A DNA stretch of 38,184 bases. It comes from a virus. Shown here in pieces: positions 18,528 through 37,727 of this stretch. The notes below the pieces were generated by a model. It was not told the DNA's origin. It ran no database searches and was given only the letters and a program-made list of their open reading frames with translations. The translations under genes were made by a program, and so were the position numbers. The stretch covers positions 1 through 38,184 of IMG/VR virus record IMGVR_UViG_3300032118_000025; one strand, 5' to 3'. Every line of letters starts with the position of its first letter. Positions within the stretch are counted from its first letter, which is position 1.

Positions 18528-18905
18528 GCAGGCGAGGCTAGGCCCGGCACGGCACGGCAAGGCCCGGCAAGGCAAGGCAGGCGCGGCGGGGCTGGGCGTG
18601 GTCTGGCAAGGCAGGCGCGGCATGGCAAGGCGAGGCACGGCATGGCGGGGCGCGGCAGGGCAGGCGCGGCATGGCAGGCTGGGCTTGGCGAGGCACGGCA
18701 GGGCAGGGCCGGGCTTGGCCGGGCTGGGCCAGGCGTGGCAAGGCAAGGCAGGCAAGGCACGGCGTGGCTTGGCAAGGCAAGGCAGGGCAAGGCGAGGCAC
18801 GGCACGGAAAGTCAGGCAAGGCATGGTGTGGCGGGGTAGGGCACGGCAGGGCCGGGCTTGGCCGGGCTGGGCCAGGCGTGGCAAGGCAAGGCAGGCAAGG
18901 CAAGG
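18528..18905 (+). repeat. GGC-anchored pentamer array, long copy
   Basis: About 380 bases of GGCNN-type units (GGCAA, GGCAC, GGCAT, GGCGC, GGCTT, GGCCG...), the same unit as at 17131-17245. Within it a 56-base segment is repeated exactly (18704-18759 and 18847-18902), showing segmental duplication on top of unit slippage. It lies directly after an intrinsic terminator and before the SD of the lipoprotein gene, the same arrangement as the short copy. No stop codons occur in most frames on either strand. I see nothing coding in it. Confidence 0.88.
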
Positions 18906-18975: not shown

Positions 18976-19215
18976 ATGCGGTACGTCATTTTCGTCCCCG
19001 TCGTCTTCGCGATCGCGTCCGTCTCCGGCTGCCTCAACCCGTCGGCCGAGCCGCGGTCGTTCGACGCGCGGCAGAAGTCGGCGATCCTCGCCGAGGAGGA
19101 GGCGAACTCGATGGGACGCCTCGAGGCCGCCGGCCGGAACTCGTCCGGGGACCGCGAGGTCTACTTCAGCCGCGAGGCGGCGCGGTGGCGGCAGGAGCGC
19201 GAGGAGCGGGAGTAA
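18976..19215 (+). CDS. Small lipoprotein
   Basis: A 79-residue protein. I chose ATG 18976 because GGAGG at 18966-18970 lies 5 bases upstream; ATG 18964 is possible. MRYVIFVPVVFAIASVSGC is a lipoprotein signal with Cys19 as the lipidated residue. The mature part is highly charged and helical (ARQKSAILAEEEANSMGRLE, ending WRQEREERE), which fits a periplasm-facing helical anchor. Function unknown. Confidence 0.72.
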   Translation: MRYVIFVPVVFAIASVSGCLNPSAEPRSFDARQKSAILAEEEANSMGRLEAAGRNSSGDREVYFSREAARWRQEREERE

Positions 19216-19321: not shown

Positions 19322-19609
19322 ATGAAACCAAAGAAGACCAAGGCTAACGGCCTTGAGCAGTACGTCGGCAAGAACGTCTTCGTCCGGACCGTCACCTACC
19401 ACCATACGGGTCGTCTATCTGCGATCGAGTCCGGATTCCTTGTCCTCGATGACGCGGCTTGGATCGCCGACAGTGGCCGGTGGTCGGAGGCGTTAAAGAC
19501 CGGCTCCCTCTCCGAGGTGGAGCCGTTCCCGGGTCGCGTCCTCGTCTCTGTGGCCTCGATTGTGGACATCTGCGAATGGGGCCTGGTCCTCCCCCGGGAC
19601 ATGAAATGA
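19322..19609 (+). CDS. Sm-like (SH3-fold) small protein
   Basis: A 95-residue protein behind AGAGAGGA. VGKNVFVRTVTYHHTGRLSA, then FLVLDDAAWIADSGRW and VLVSVASIVDICEW give the strand order of an Sm/SH3-like barrel. I recall this as a recurrent phage family of unknown role near recombination genes. Its stop overlaps the ATG of the Ser-repeat ORF (ATGA at 19606). Upstream lies the possible attenuator. Confidence 0.65.
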   Translation: MKPKKTKANGLEQYVGKNVFVRTVTYHHTGRLSAIESGFLVLDDAAWIADSGRWSEALKTGSLSEVEPFPGRVLVSVASIVDICEWGLVLPRDMK

Positions 19610-19830
19610 CGGTTGGCTGTCAACTCATCGGACGCGACTGGTCGCGGTCGCGGTCGGGGTCGCGGTCGGGGTCGCAGTCGTGGTCGGGGTCGGGGTCGGG
19701 GTCGCGGTCGTGGTCGCGGTCGGGGTCGGGGTCGCGGTCGGGGTCGTGGTCGCGGTCGGGGTCGTGGTCGCGGTCGCGGTCGTGGTCGGGGTCGGGGTCG
19801 TGGTCGCGGTCGGGGTCGGGGTCGGGGTAA
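19606..19830 (+). CDS. Ser-X repeat protein encoded by a hexamer satellite
   Basis: A 74-residue reading frame: 12 ordinary residues (MTVGCQLIGRDW) and then 31 dipeptides Ser-Arg, Ser-Gly, Ser-Trp or once Ser-Gln. Each unit is TCG plus NGG, with N being C, G or T (one CAG). The start overlaps the upstream stop as ATGA and its stop overlaps the downstream start as TAATG, exactly as in the coupled genes of this genome, which argues that it is translated. The composition resembles RS/SG-type disordered RNA-binding tails. No family recognised. It may instead be only a spacer whose frame keeps coupling intact. Confidence 0.5.
   Translation: MTVGCQLIGRDWSRSRSGSRSGSQSWSGSGSGSRSWSRSGSGSRSGSWSRSGSWSRSRSWSGSGSWSRSGSGSG
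19642..19827 (+). repeat. Hexanucleotide satellite, 31 units of TCGNGG
   Basis: 186 bases of uninterrupted hexamers TCG-CGG, TCG-GGG and TCG-TGG, with one TCG-CAG. Nearly all variation is at the fourth base, which never is A. The plus strand has no A except in the single CAG unit. The length is a whole number of codons, so slippage by whole units preserves the frame. Confidence 0.95.
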
Positions 19831-20618
19831 TGCTTATGCCCGCGCCAGTCTATCCGCCGCCGACTCCGGGAGTCCGGAGGATCACGCAGTCGACGCTCCA
19901 GCAGTACCTGCGATGCGGGATCGCGTGGGGGTTCCAGCGCGAGTCGAAGGCTCGGCACGCGACCGTCCGGATGCTCGTCGGCTCCGGGGTCGATGCCGGG
20001 GCCGCAGAGGACAACCGCGAGAAGATCGTGCGGGGGACCCCGGCGACGCTCACGCGGATCGTCGACGCGGCGGTCGCCGGCTACGAGGAGGAGGCCGGGA
20101 CCTCCGACGTTCCGGAGCCGGCCTCGGAGGTCGCCCAGGGGAAGGACGACACCGCCGCCGCGGCGCGGGTCTTCGGCCTCGAGGTCTCCCCGGGGATCGA
20201 GCCGATCGCAGCCCAGTCCCCGCTCGTCTACCCGGTCCGCGGGATCGAGCTGGCGGGGACCCCAGACTACGTCACCGGCGACGGGGTCGGGGACCTCAAG
20301 GTCGGCCAGCCATGGTCACAAGACCGGGCCGACCGTTCGCGGCAGCTTACCGGGTACGCCGTACTCCACCGGTTGCACTACGGCCGGTGGCCCGGACGGT
20401 GCTGGATCGACTCGCTCTCGTTCAGCGGCGGAAAGTGGCACGCCGCGCGGCTCTGGACGCGGAGGGCGGCCGAGGACGCCTCGACCTTCCTCGAGATCGT
20501 CGAGCGTGCGGCGAAGGGAATGGATTCTGGCGTGGCGCTACCCGCCCCCGAAGGGGCGTGGTACTGCGCCGACAAGTGGTGCCCGTTCTTCCGCCGGTGT
20601 CCGGCGGTCCGGGCGTAA
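19830..20618 (+). CDS. PD-(D/E)XK nuclease, Cas4/RecB-like, with Cys cluster
   Basis: A 262-residue nuclease; ATG 19830 shares bases with the previous stop (TAATG), and ATG 19836 is an alternative. The N-terminal helix ITQSTLQQYLRCGIAWGF and the core GTPDYVTGDGVGDLKVG (Asp146, Asp155, Lys157) form the active site. Cys29 with Cys246, Cys251 and Cys257 (WYCADKWCPFFRRC) match the four-Cys iron-sulfur clamp of AddB/Cas4-type exonucleases. It lies directly before the Bet/RecT annealase, so it probably resects double-strand ends to supply single strands for annealing. Confidence 0.86.
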   Translation: MLMPAPVYPPPTPGVRRITQSTLQQYLRCGIAWGFQRESKARHATVRMLVGSGVDAGAAEDNREKIVRGTPATLTRIVDAAVAGYEEEAGTSDVPEPASEVAQGKDDTAAAARVFGLEVSPGIEPIAAQSPLVYPVRGIELAGTPDYVTGDGVGDLKVGQPWSQDRADRSRQLTGYAVLHRLHYGRWPGRCWIDSLSFSGGKWHAARLWTRRAAEDASTFLEIVERAAKGMDSGVALPAPEGAWYCADKWCPFFRRCPAVRA

Positions 20619-20637
20619 CAGGTCAGGGAGAAGATCA

Positions 20638-21651
20638 ATGGCAGAAGGAACTCAGCAGCAAGAGCGACGGCAGACGGGTCCGGGACCGGGAGCATCACGG
20701 ACCGCGCAGAAACTCGTCGGCCGAATGGCCGAGAAGTATGGCGTAGCCCCGGAGGCGCTCCTCGCTTGCCTCCGCGATACCGCCTTCAAGGTGAAGAGGG
20801 ATGAGCAGCCTTTCAGCGATACCGAGATCGCGGCGGCGCTGATCATCGCCGAACAGCACGACCTCAATCCGTTTGCGAAAGAAATCTACGTCACCCGTTC
20901 GCACGGAAAGCTCCTCGTGATCGTCCCGATCGATGGCTGGGCGAAGCTCGTCAACCGCGAGGGGAGTTACGACGGTTGCGAGTTCGAGACGATCCTTGAC
21001 GAGAAGGGGAAGCCGTACTCGATCGCCTGTCGGATGTTCCGGAAGGACAGGTCACATCCGACGGAGATCACGGAGTACCTCTCCGAGTGCCACCGCGACA
21101 CAGAGCCCTGGAACGGCTGGCCGAGCAGGATGCTGCGGCACAAGGCGTTTATTCAGGCGGCGCGGTACGCCTTCTCGCTCTCCGGAGTCATGGACGACGA
21201 CGAGGCCGAGCGTATGATCGACGCCGAGGTCGAGGCGCCACGGCAGCGGCCGGCGCTTCCGGCACCGCGGGAACTGCAAGACCAGCCGTGGGACTCCCGG
21301 CAGGCTCGGGAGCCGGTCGGGGCCGGGCTCGAACAGGAGCTTGACCGTACGGCCAGGGCATCGTCCGTCCCATCGGCCGAGACGAAGCCGTCACCCGCCC
21401 CGGGAGTGGAGGCGACGCCCGACCAGATCAACCGCGAGGCGGTCGCGGAGCCGGGGCGGAATGATCCCCCGCTGGGCGCCGGAGAGGACCACTACAAGCT
21501 CTGGCAACAGCTCAGCTCGATGAGGAAAGACCTCGGGATTGAGGGGATCCGGAAGGTCAAGGCCGCGCTCGGCGTCGACTCCTTGAGCCCCTCGCTCACG
21601 GTCGACCAGCTCCGGGTCGCGGTCGAGGTGGCGCAGGACCTCGCGAGGTGA
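20638..21651 (+). CDS. bet: Bet/RecT-family single-strand annealing protein
   Basis: A 337-residue recombinase. The Bet signature is clear: AALIIAEQHDLNPFAKEIYV, VPIDGWAKLVNREGSYDGCE, FRKDRSHP, then EPWNGWPSRMLRHKAFIQAA and FSLSGVMDDDEAERM. The family anneals complementary single strands during phage recombination and replication. Residues about 215-285 are a disordered Pro/Ala/Glu-rich linker, and a small helical domain (about 285-337) ends the protein. ATG 20638 was chosen for the AGGGAGA SD. It pairs with the nuclease just upstream. Confidence 0.9.
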   Translation: MAEGTQQQERRQTGPGPGASRTAQKLVGRMAEKYGVAPEALLACLRDTAFKVKRDEQPFSDTEIAAALIIAEQHDLNPFAKEIYVTRSHGKLLVIVPIDGWAKLVNREGSYDGCEFETILDEKGKPYSIACRMFRKDRSHPTEITEYLSECHRDTEPWNGWPSRMLRHKAFIQAARYAFSLSGVMDDDEAERMIDAEVEAPRQRPALPAPRELQDQPWDSRQAREPVGAGLEQELDRTARASSVPSAETKPSPAPGVEATPDQINREAVAEPGRNDPPLGAGEDHYKLWQQLSSMRKDLGIEGIRKVKAALGVDSLSPSLTVDQLRVAVEVAQDLAR

Positions 21652-26705: not shown

Positions 26706-27560
26706 ATGAGCCGCACCCTCCGCCGCTTCAAGAGCCGACCCCAGTCCATGCCGCTTTTCGCCGATGCCTGGATCGGTAGCCAGAGCATAAACCTCATGAC
26801 TCCCGAGGAGGAAGGCGCGTACGTCCGGCTCCTACTTCACGCTTGGCGCTCTGACACCTGCACCTTGCCGGCGGACGACGCATCCCTGGCAGTCCTGTCC
26901 CGGCTCGGCGAGCGGTGGAACACGTGTTCCGACCGGATACGTTCTTGCTTCTCCGTTTGCGTGCAAGATGCGTCCCGGATCTTCAACGAAAAACAGTATG
27001 ATATTCGTATGAATCACGAGGAATTTTGGCGCCAGCGACAGGCCGCTGGCATAATTTCAGGTAAATCAAGGAGTAACATTGGGAACAAGCGTTCAACACG
27101 TGTTGAACATGTGTTGAACAAGCGTATCGATCTCGTTCGAACATCTTCAGCTTCAGCTTCAGCTTCAGCTTCAGCTTTAAAACCTCCATCTCCAACCTCT
27201 TCCCCCACGCCCCTTGAAGGTGGAGGGTCTAGCGACCCTGGAAGAGGACGACGGACGGACGGACGGAACGCAGCCAGGATCACCGTCGAAGACCTCAAAA
27301 GCGATTGTCGACTGGAGGCGTGCTACCAGAGAGCGATCCGGGTCGGCATCATCGGCAAGAGCCGATCTGATCGTGAGCACTACTGGGCCGCCGCAGTCCA
27401 CGCGCTCCGGCGCGATCCGGTTGGGGCTCCAAATCTTTTCGCCTGGATGGTCAAGGGCAAGGAGTGGTCGAAGATCACCGAGGCGGAGGGAGACGAAGGT
27501 CACAAGCGTCTCAAGAAATTCGAAATGGAAGCGACGTCTACAGAAGGAGGATCCAAGTGA
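26706..27560 (+). CDS. DUF1376 replication-initiator-like protein
   Basis: A 284-residue protein. Residues 14-115 are a DUF1376 domain (MPLFADAWIGSQSINLMTPE, EEGAYVRLLLHAWR, FNEKQYDIR, then EFWRQRQAAGIISGKSRSN), typical of phage replication/initiator proteins with a winged-helix-like N-terminus. A low-complexity linker with SASASASASA (about 147-157) follows, then a C-terminal helical domain (YQRAIRVGIIGKSRSDREHY). The linker DNA carries repeats and palindromes that could be the origin, as in lambda O. A loader for the host helicase would be expected, but none is seen next to it. Confidence 0.78.
   Translation: MSRTLRRFKSRPQSMPLFADAWIGSQSINLMTPEEEGAYVRLLLHAWRSDTCTLPADDASLAVLSRLGERWNTCSDRIRSCFSVCVQDASRIFNEKQYDIRMNHEEFWRQRQAAGIISGKSRSNIGNKRSTRVEHVLNKRIDLVRTSSASASASASALKPPSPTSSPTPLEGGGSSDPGRGRRTDGRNAARITVEDLKSDCRLEACYQRAIRVGIIGKSRSDREHYWAAAVHALRRDPVGAPNLFAWMVKGKEWSKITEAEGDEGHKRLKKFEMEATSTEGGSK
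27083..27175 (+). other. Candidate replication origin inside the initiator gene
   Basis: Within about 90 bases: an 18-base perfect palindrome GTTCAACACGTGTTGAAC (27091-27108), a further TGTTGAAC (27112-27119), a direct repeat GAACAAGCGT (27083-27092 and 27116-27125), the palindrome GTTCGAAC (27135-27142), and five perfect TTCAGC units (27146-27175). The flanks are AT-richer than the genome. Repeats inside the initiator gene recall the lambda O origin. Confidence 0.5.
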
Positions 27561-34872: not shown

Positions 34873-36675
34873 ATGAGCCTCTCCGTCAGTACGATCTGGG
34901 AACTCAATGCCGACGCTACGGCCAGCGGTGTAAACGGGAGCGGATTTAACCCGGCGAACGCCAATATGCTCACCGACCTCGCCTGCGACGCGAATACGGG
35001 CAATACCAACTCGCCCGTGGTCTCCTCGGCGACCTATACCTTCGTCGCGGGGGACGTAGGGCACTGGGTCTACGTCAAATCCGGAACGAACTGGACTCCG
35101 GGCTGGTACAAGATCGCGTCGGTCTCCGGCGGCAAGGCGACGCTCTCGGCGGCTATCGGGGAGGCGGTCCAGCAGGATACGACGAAGGGGAGCCCGTCTC
35201 CGAAGTTCGGCGCGAATACCGTCGCCGGTTGTGGGACGGTCGCGACGCCAACCAGCGGGACGTTCACCATCGACTACTCGCAGGGGACGGCCGCGATTCT
35301 CGCGCTCACGGATGGCGCGAGCACCGACGCTTCGGCGGTCCTCACTTCGGTGACCGGTGGATTCACTCCAGTGATGGTCGGGAACGTCCTGCGACTCGCG
35401 TCCGGGACGAACTACGTTGACGGGTGGTTTGAGATTGTCAGCTACAACAGCGCGACCTCGGTCGCCGTCGATCGCGACTGCGCTGGCGCCGGGAACCTCT
35501 CGAGCGGCGTATTCAAGGTCGGAGGCGCGTTCTCCCTGAACTCGACTCTGGACGACGACTTTTTCGAGCAGGCGCTCGGAACCAACGGGTCCGGAGCAAT
35601 GCGCTTCTTCGTCAAAAACAAGTCGGGTGGAGGCTATTTACTCGGAGAATCGATCTCGCTTGCAACGGGCATCGGCGGGACGCAGGCTCCAGTAGCGATC
35701 GAAGGGTACAATTTGCTACGCGGAGATACTCCGACGGGCGACAATCGGCCGAAGATCGATTGCGCGGCTTATTCTATAACCTTAAATACGGCGATGGACG
35801 TCTACAATTTGCGTATCACTGGTACAGGCAGCAATGTACTAATTCCGAGAACCGGCGGGAGGGTAGTCAATTGCAAGATTGTTAATACAAGCACGACCGC
35901 CAGCAGAAACGCACTGTATAATGACAATGGGAGCAATTATTTATTCAATATAGAACTGATCAGCTACAGGGGATACGCATTCAATACCGGATCCGCGAGT
36001 TTGGTTCTTGATTCCTGTTGGTTGCACGAATCTAATACGGGGCTGAGGCTGGGTTCAGGAGGGGTCACTTTACTAAATACGATCATCTCAAGCAATGTTG
36101 CGTACGCCATAAATTCGGCGGCGGCTCTGACCACTGCGGTTCTTTTCCTGAACTCTACGCTCTACGGTGCCGAGAACAAGACGGGTGTCGGTGTCAATCT
36201 CCTCACCGCAACAACGTATGTCAGATGCAGGAATACGATCCTATACGGCTTTGTCACCGGCATCGCGCATGCGGATGTGCAGACTCAAGGGTTCGACGAC
36301 TTTAACGATTACTATAACAACACGGCCGACGTATCCAACTGGCAAAAGGGTGCGAATGATATCGCGGTCGCCCCGGCGTTTACGAGCGTCGGGCAGGTGA
36401 CGGGGACCGCGGGCGCGTTCGTCGCCGGTAACGGCAAGCTCGTCGACACGTCGAAAAACTTCACGAACCTGGGCGTTGTCGCCGGGCGTGATTACGTGTA
36501 CATCGTCTCGGGCACCGGAGCGACGGCGGGAATCTATGGAATTTCGTCGATCTCGACGACGACGAATGCGAACGATACGCTGAACCTGGACATCTCTCCG
36601 GGTACGAACACGACCGCCGACAAGGTTTACCAGATCACGATCGGGCATAACTTCCTCCCGACGGGAGTCGTATAA
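34873..36675 (+). CDS. Beta-helix virion protein with three repeated modules
   Basis: A 600-residue virion-type protein. The N-terminus ([20 protein letters not shown]) is of a kind found in phage structural proteins. A module of about 35 residues (D/N-V-hydrophobic-SGT-x-GW-Y/F-x-I) occurs three times: about 60-94, 169-202 and 537-573. Residues about 290-470 are rungs of a right-handed beta-helix ([20 protein letters not shown] and similar). The beta-helix core DNA is AT-richer than the ends (26 G or C in the 60 bases from 35941). Its stop overlaps the next ATG (TAATG). Confidence 0.68.
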
Positions 36676-37727
36676 TGGCTCTTGGATTTCCTGGCACTTT
36701 CCCTGGCGGACTTACGATCGGCGCGTTGATCATCGGCGCGGTACAAATAGGGACCGCAGGGACCAAGGGATTCCCTGGTGCTTTCCAAGGTGGGTATTCC
36801 ACGGGGAATTTAACTATCGGCGCCGTCGAGCAGGCAGCGGCTGGGGGCCAGCCTTCGGCGTCCGCCTCGCCTTCGGGATCGCCGTCGGCCTCGAAGTCGG
36901 CTTCGCCTTCGGCCTCGATCAGCCCGAGCCCCTCGGCTTCCGCATCCGGTTCGCCATCGGCATCGGCTTCGGGTTCCCCATCCACTTCGATTTCCCCTTC
37001 CCCTTCTGCCTCGGCCTCAGGATCGCCGTCAGCCTCGGTCTCGCCAAGTCCCTCCGCGTCGGCGTCGGCGAGCCTATCGGCGTCTAGGTTCGCCTCCCCC
37101 TCGGCTTCTCCTTCAGCGTCCGTTTCGCCGAGTCCGTCTGCCTCACCCTCGGCGTCTGTTTCCCCGAGCCCATCGGCATCGCCCTCCGCTTCGAAGTCGG
37201 CTTCCCCGTCCGCCTCGATCAGCCCGAGTCCTTCGGCCTCGATATCCCCGAGTCCTTCGGCCTCGGCTTCCGGGTCTCCTTCTGCCTCGATAAGCCCAAG
37301 CCCTTCGGCCTCGGTATCTCCGAGTCCCTCGGCCTCTCCCTCAAGATCGGCCTCGGCCTCCCCGTCTGCGTCCGTTTCCCCAAGCCCCTCGGCTTCTCCC
37401 TCCGCGTCCGCATCGGCAAGTCCCTCGGCATCCCCTTCCGCGTCCGCATCGGCGAGTCCCTCTGCCTCGCCCTCGGGGTCTCCCTCGGCATCACCCTCGG
37501 CCTCGATCTCGCCAAGTCCCTCGGCTTCCCCATCTGGGTCGCCCTCGGCCTCTCCTTCGGCGTCGGTCTCTGCCTCGCCTTCTGCCTCCCCCTCAGCGAG
37601 TCCCTCGGCATCGGCCTCGTCTGTAGCCCTGAGCATTGCACGCGCTATAGTCCACTTCAGCCTACGGAAGCCTTCCGTAACCTTCGATCTACGGAAGCCA
37701 TCCGTAACTATCTACATGGGAGAATGA
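36675..37727 (+). CDS. Ser-Pro-Ala repeat surface protein
   Basis: A 350-residue protein. Residues 1-56 hold two similar segments ([20 protein letters not shown] and [20 protein letters not shown]). Residues about 59-318 are a long run of SPSAS, SPSGS and SISPSPSAS units with few other residues. The end carries two copies of LRKPSVT ([20 protein letters not shown]). Synonymous codons vary widely between units, so the repeat is kept at the protein level. It is likely an extended, perhaps glycosylated, virion or fibre protein. The same repeat ends the tail tube protein. Confidence 0.72.
36850..37617 (+). repeat. Long degenerate array coding for SPSAS units
   Basis: About 770 bases of TCG/TCC/TCT/AGC, GCC/GCG/GCA/GCT and CCC/CCG/CCT codons in 9- to 15-base units. 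Within this array, short blocks such as cccgagcccctcggc recur. The opposite strand reads as an open Glu/Ala/Asp-rich frame, which is only a by-product. Confidence 0.9.

Follow-up and report, generated by a model that had tools for sequence, protein, structure and literature searches.

Structure of the locus

The window, that is, the whole stretch of 38,184 nucleotides analysed here (IMG/VR virus record IMGVR_UViG_3300032118_000025), contains an array of hexanucleotide units between the gene of a small protein and an exonuclease gene, the latter being followed by a gene for a RecT/Bet-like annealing protein. The features are:

19322-19609, plus strand: gene of a 95-aa protein with a predicted Sm/LSm fold, the upstream partner (AlphaFold2 model; fold matches)
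19606-19609, plus strand: ATGA, overlap of the Ser-X start with the stop of the Sm-like gene (sequence; an identical -4 overlap is seen in most relatives of class A)
19606-19830, plus strand: Ser-X repeat gene, 74 aa, ATG to TAA (translation; frame, start and stop kept in relatives)
19606-19641, plus strand: leader of 12 codons, class A type (leader alignment; compare MNGAILHIGYDW in locus L041)
19642-19827, plus strand: array of 31 TCGNGG units (TRF, pattern search)
19828-19832, plus strand: TAATG, overlap of the Ser-X stop with the nuclease start (sequence; junction not conserved in relatives)
19830-20618, plus strand: PD-(D/E)XK exonuclease, a neighbour outside the conserved module (PF12705, PDDEXK_1, E = 3.6e-12; phrog_69 exonuclease, E = 3.6e-7)

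The array has a TRF score of 252-289. The TCGNGG pattern, with N never being A, is followed by 30 of the 31 units, the remaining one being TCGCAG (19672-19677). The reading frame at 19606-19830 comprises a 12-residue leader, MTVGCQLIGRDW, and 31 Ser-X dipeptides with Arg in 10, Gly in 14, Trp in six and Gln in one, Ser being encoded by TCG in 31 of 31 cases. An earlier, sequence-only reading had described this array as a 31-unit hexamer satellite encoding 31 Ser-Arg/Gly/Trp dipeptides, with invariant Ser codons and variation confined almost wholly to the first base of the partner codon. The number of units, the Ser codons and the position of the variation are borne out, and 30 dipeptides fit the description; the satellite status does not hold, as the comparative data show a protein-coding gene.

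The Ser-X frame had also been considered the only one linking the two neighbours, and coupled to them as genes are. Both junctions, ATGA and TAATG, are indeed gene-like, but two other frames are open as well: the Gly-Arg frame over 19613-20746, and the Val-X frame straight into the nuclease. Only in the Ser-X frame is the array bordered by both an ATG and a stop. As all three forward frames are open, the frame is not decidable from the window alone. The exact array pattern is absent from the rest of the contig, the reversed-pattern control also yielding zero.

Reading frame of the repeat in phages and bacteria

When IMG/VR was scanned for the pattern of six TCGNGG units, at least 119 stretches were obtained; separate scans were made for AGYNGG and TCHNGG. 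An array was considered framed if there was an ATG or GTG 9-60 nt upstream of it and a stop at most 18 nt downstream. Among the matches listed, 89 of the 105 phage TCGNGG arrays with both flanks were framed as Ser-X, and each of the other two frames was found once. For the TCGNGG arrays of bacterial genomes (n = 77) the respective numbers were 8, 1 and 2. The listed bacterial arrays are mostly uniform SWSWSW or SRSRSR, whereas Arg, Gly and Trp occur together in the phage arrays.

The Ser-X frame also dominated in mixed arrays taken over six Ser codons (183 of 206 among the matches listed; other frames, 1 and 4), and was framed in 22 of 125 unmixed arrays. By Ser codon, the mixed arrays framed as Ser-X were 80 of 93 for TCG (among the matches listed), 13 of 17 for AGC, 3 of 4 for AGT, 68 of 72 for TCT, 18 of 19 for TCA and the single one for TCC. 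The frame, with the start 18-45 nt upstream of the array and the stop just downstream, is kept in approximately 85-90% of phage arrays, in agreement with the coupled Ser-X gene proposed earlier. The comparison of frames in relatives suggested at the same time did not show, as a pattern, arrays in another frame or broken by stops beside an intact nuclease. We are highly confident that the Ser-X repeat of the window is a real protein-coding gene.

One locus (L055:1304-1836, minus strand) has a frame-shifted TCGNGG array with Ser-X, Val-X and Gly-Arg alternating, which is a decaying or misassembled copy.

Codon classes and variation within the arrays

In the loci sampled via the upstream gene family, about half of the repeats contain no TCGNGG array, the Ser codon being AGC, TCT or TCA instead. 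By codon, the Ser-X units number 771 for TCG, 420 for AGC, 336 for TCT and 140 for TCA, and X is Arg in 630, Trp in 494 and Gly in 484. The Ser codon is uniform inside each array of these loci. Arg is encoded by AGG or CGG, and one of these alone is used in 49 of 55 arrays, compared to 0.7 expected under mixing. Thus, synonymous alternatives have been lost through homogenisation of the units inside an array, and this is also why the variation in the window is restricted to the partner codon. The mixture of X residues persists, with only three of 62 arrays missing one of Arg, Trp and Gly, and is most simply explained by selection. The same peptide being written in six Ser codon classes and with two Arg codons, the selection is seen at the protein level.

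In TCG arrays the wobble base of Ser shows the least variation and the first base of X varies without restriction, which is the reverse of ordinary coding constraint, and TCG and GG hardly vary whatever the flanking GC content (34-72%). The low variability of the Ser wobble base suggested a nucleotide-level element; this candidate was ruled out by the codon classes, and homogenisation together with selection for the Arg/Trp/Gly mixture suffices. Targeted mutagenesis of N by a DGR-like system was rejected as well: it predicts A, C, G and T in each array, but a single Arg codon is used in most of them. All codon classes share a GG with a period of six bases, which is accounted for by the Trp codon TGG; a residual nucleic-acid constraint on the arrays may be reflected in this shared period.

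The leader is not subject to homogenisation, and there codon position 3 varies more than the other two. For class A leaders picked by residue pattern the entropy at this position is 1.59 vs 0.86 and 0.74, and for leaders taken without such a choice, 1.81 vs 1.55 and 1.58.

Upstream Sm-like family

The upstream genes of 75 phage arrays are homologous and make up a single family (profile E < 1e-3, among the matches listed), in which two subclasses are distinguished, A (IRTVT...AAWIADTGRF...LPRxQK) and B (GEGLEALLG...YIYTGKL...ESFGLGK). It matches no named family in Pfam, PHROGs or NCBIfam, no Sm family appears even among the weak matches of 49 relatives, and the PDB yields no sequence match with E under 0.8. 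The AlphaFold2 model of the 95-aa protein, built with 46 relatives, has a pLDDT of 93.9 and the order H-E-E-E-(H)-E-E, that is, a short N-terminal helix and a predicted five-stranded, strongly bent barrel, as in Sm/LSm proteins. All 50 top matches to the model (Foldseek and VIA) are Sm/LSm chains with Z of 9.0-10.1; the best fold match has E = 4.6e-5, and an archaeal SmAP is superimposed with Z = 10.1 at 2.2 A over 71 residues. The upstream partner is thus predicted to have an Sm fold and lies, by sequence, outside every named Sm family.

A search of IMG/VR with the Sm-like family only confirmed 314 relatives, of which the best 80 were taken, 72 having enough downstream sequence. Directly behind the Sm-like gene, 62 of these 72 carry a dipeptide-repeat ORF; of the ten without a repeat by the ORF test, one (L256) has a degenerate repeat. 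Starting from the repeats, a gene of the Sm-like family was found at most 700 nt upstream in 71 of 107 mixed non-TCG arrays vs 11 of 119 unmixed arrays.

Coupling of the two genes

The Sm-like and Ser-X genes are joined by ATGA or GTGA, with a gap of -4, in most class A relatives, and class B mostly shows small gaps. The mean charge of the leader tracks the Sm-like subclass, being +0.19 in A (n = 53) vs +3.42 in B (n = 19; p = 7e-11). In several phages a single Sm-like gene precedes a tandem series of two to five Ser-X genes. The Ser-X proteins have a median net charge of +10 and eight Trp per protein. We consider it very probable that the Ser-X protein and the Sm-like protein are functional partners, and the pair appears to be an as yet undescribed phage system of two parts. 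The conserved Sm-fold partner, the hexamers of other phages encoding the same peptide, and the homogenisation had all been overlooked by the sequence-only reading.

In five loci (L019, L080, L022, L049, L072) the number of tandem Ser-X genes is three to five, with near-identical leaders and mostly ATGA coupling. Another (L009:2867-3600) has three, one before and two after a single Sm-like gene; the Gly-Arg frame of its third array continues into a zinc-finger-like ORF, and the same is seen in L012.

Distribution and gene neighbourhood

The Ser-X repeat is common to hundreds of uncultivated phages. Among public phage records the Sm-like family was found only in MW202573 and MW202825, both uncultured, and in MW202825 the repeat is unannotated. 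The family profile yielded nothing in approximately 1,560 genomes drawn from the four phyla to which four bacterial loci belong, while the positive control for this search recovered four of four virus records; no members were found in plasmids. The open-access literature searched contained neither a description of the Sm-like/Ser-X module or of the DUF6948 module considered below, nor an experiment with the Sm-like or the Ser-X protein; an earlier account may exist elsewhere. Neighbouring genes of named families mostly serve recombination and replication (RecT, Erf, RecE-like, exonuclease, helicase/primase, DNA polymerase, methyltransferases).

A mirror module with DUF6948

The BFVD fold matches of the Sm-like model include DUF6948 (PF22253) proteins. 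There is no detectable sequence similarity between the two families (hhalign probability 0.3%), and PF22253 matches neither the protein of the window nor anything else in the contig. Behind the DUF6948 gene, 68 of 72 IMG/VR loci have a Gly-[Ser/Tyr/Asp] repeat gene, mostly with a 13-nt overlap. The DUF6948 loci considered, cultivated phages included, are:

L572:1293-1783, L574:1483-2012, L573, L575-L579 and L582-L661: DUF6948 genes, with a Gly-X repeat gene behind in most

The Gly codon differs between these arrays, and the median net charge is -8 for the Gly-X repeat vs +10 for the Ser-X repeat. Three loci (L572, L573, L574) carry both modules, the DUF6948 gene being followed by a Gly-[Ser/Tyr/Asp/Asn] repeat gene. 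The DUF6948 module occurs in the cultivated Iodobacter phage PhiPLPE, Pectobacterium phage Taid, Vibrio phage IKEMa6-1 and Chlorobiaceae phage CV-1-33. In CV-1-33 the annotated repeat ORF (QOE32032.1, L578:1483-1728) is misframed as Met-Ala, the Gly-X frame being at 1467-1721.

Two human gut phages (MT835900 and MT836871; L580 and L581) have a short GYGSG stretch behind DUF6948 and no separate repeat gene; this stretch is fused in one ORF with a longer non-repeat region.

Possible role of the Ser-X protein and alternative explanations

The AlphaFold2 model of the Ser-X protein, made from the single sequence, has a pLDDT of 53.7 and no secondary structure; of the readings offered earlier, an RS-like disordered protein is the best one. 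We put at about even the chance that the chain is a disordered, basic, Trp-rich partner of the Sm-like protein in nucleic-acid metabolism. The two genes would be translated in a coupled way, so that both proteins are made together, and the leader, whose charge differs by Sm-like subclass, is matched to the partner and probably docks the repeat on it. The repeat would then serve as a "tail in trans", with Arg and Trp binding or condensing nucleic acid and Ser and Gly as spacers, presumably within the early replication and recombination programme of the phage. That the Ser-X protein works as such a nucleic-acid-binding tail is plausible but somewhat short of an even chance. The array length may shift via slippage or recombination by two residues per step, homogenisation would fix one Ser and one Arg codon per array, and selection would maintain the Arg/Trp/Gly mixture. 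Rather unlikely, in our estimate, is a further extension, a two-polymer system in which the basic Ser-[Arg/Trp/Gly] chain and, in some genomes, the acidic Gly-[Ser/Tyr/Asp] chain, both of them aromatic and each with its own Sm-fold protein, would form an RNA-protein condensate made by the phage, with properties adjusted via the number and composition of the repeats.

The main functional rival is a membrane-active Arg/Trp peptide that would serve lysis or the shut-off of the host, the Sm-like protein being its regulator or antitoxin. Arg/Trp-rich membrane-active peptides resemble Ser-X proteins in charge and Trp content; however, the strict alternation of Ser and the neighbourhood of replication and recombination rather than lysis genes argue against this function, which also leaves the acidic mirror module behind another Sm-like family unexplained, and we consider it unlikely.

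The remaining alternatives concern the repeat itself. If it were a DNA- or RNA-level element (a binding array, a G-rich structure or a recombination site), open in all frames by chance, the near invariance of TCG and GG, the conservation of the synonymous base of Ser and the three open forward frames of the window would be accounted for. This explanation is nevertheless very improbable, as AGCNGG, TCTNGG and TCANGG (and, in a few cases, AGTNGG and TCCNGG) take the place of TCGNGG in other phages without any change in the peptide or in its start and stop, and the leaders are kept as peptides.

A length-variable translation relay setting the expression of the downstream nuclease, as proposed earlier, would agree with the TAATG junction and with the presence of a start codon within approximately 5 nt of the repeat stop in 82 of 157 repeats, some of these starts belonging to the next tandem repeat gene. 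However, the downstream gene lacks conservation: it differs in nearly every relative, the 157 repeats giving 132 clusters, and the conserved neighbour is the upstream one. Hence, the coupling to the nuclease of the window, for which a direct search found no relatives, is incidental. As the leader and the Arg/Trp/Gly composition are constrained as well, the relay has little chance of being correct and this proposal is abandoned.

A selfish or neutral microsatellite tolerated downstream of the Sm-like gene would be homogenised and variable in length, as the arrays are, but would hardly have kept its frame, leader class and residue mixture over the divergence of hundreds of phages and across six Ser codons, and ordinary bacterial TCGNGG arrays have neither this frame, nor the leader class, nor the mixture; it too is highly unlikely. 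Finally, a Gly-Arg protein, a tail similar to that of SmD1, could arise if translation of the Sm-like gene, which shares the Gly-Arg frame, were extended via read-through or a frameshift. It was initially favoured since N is synonymous in this frame; TCG arrays give a perfect (GR)n there, and in L009 and L012 the frame enters a zinc-finger gene. The Gly-Arg protein is nevertheless extremely improbable, being ruled out by the AGC, TCT and TCA arrays, where the frame is not conserved and yields Gly-Ala, Gly-Leu or other dipeptides, by the start and stop in this frame in only one of 105 arrays (among the matches listed), and by stops between the Sm-like and repeat genes in many relatives.

Comparison with known systems

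Eukaryotic SmB, SmD1 and SmD3 carry disordered Arg-Gly tails. The phage module is similar in joining an Sm fold to a low-complexity Arg-rich chain, but here the chain is a separate, coupled Ser-[Arg/Trp/Gly] protein, and no sequence relationship was found. With Hfq and archaeal SmAP, the latter being the best structural match, the upstream partner shares its small size and predicted Sm fold; it differs in belonging to a phage-specific family with conserved IRTVT and AAWIADTGRF motifs, and the predicted fold does not imply a ring or RNA binding. Eukaryotic RS/SR domains also are Ser-Arg dipeptide chains, presumed disordered, whereas in these bacterial viruses the residues alternating with Ser are Arg, Trp and Gly at similar frequencies. 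In the window, Ser-Arg makes up 10 of 31 dipeptides, the others being Ser-Gly, Ser-Trp and one Ser-Gln, and the 74-aa protein, leader and repeat together, has neither an RRM nor any Pfam domain. A further parallel is the DUF6948 module, where a neighbour with an Sm fold is likewise followed by an overlapping dipeptide-repeat gene; the Sm-like families have no sequence similarity, and the Ser-X chain is basic while the Gly-X chain is acidic.

In Borgs, which are extrachromosomal elements, DNA tandem repeats of a length divisible by three encode disordered amino-acid repeats (PMC9879509); these are described as unique per locus and without Arg CGG codons (PMC9879509). In the phage module, by contrast, the peptide is the same across hundreds of phages while the underlying DNA repeats differ, and it has a single conserved partner. 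In low-complexity regions of prokaryotes, Trp and Arg are under-represented (PMC6821194). Of the open-access literature searched, these two papers come nearest to the module.

If our interpretation is true, hundreds of phage genomes hold an unnamed system of an Sm-fold protein and a separate low-complexity chain that is independent of the codons used. The module was overlooked because both families lack profiles and because gene callers skip or misframe the repeat. Since each array is built on its own codons, the arrays amount to a rare natural experiment on the features that a disordered chain has to preserve, namely, alternation, charge and three balanced residues, and the sister module with DUF6948 in cultivated phages makes the function testable.

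Other repeats in the window

A second protein of this phage with alternating Ser, of 350 aa, is encoded at 36675-37727 and consists mostly of Ser alternating with Ala, Pro or Gly; its gene contains many overlapping DNA tandem repeats of 24-72 bp. Five-base units (AGGCA-like, approximately 76 copies) occupy 18530-18905, just before a likely lipoprotein gene (18976-19215), and are probably non-coding, as a period of five rotates through the frames. A perfect hexamer repeat, (CTTCAG)5.5, is located at 27145-27177.
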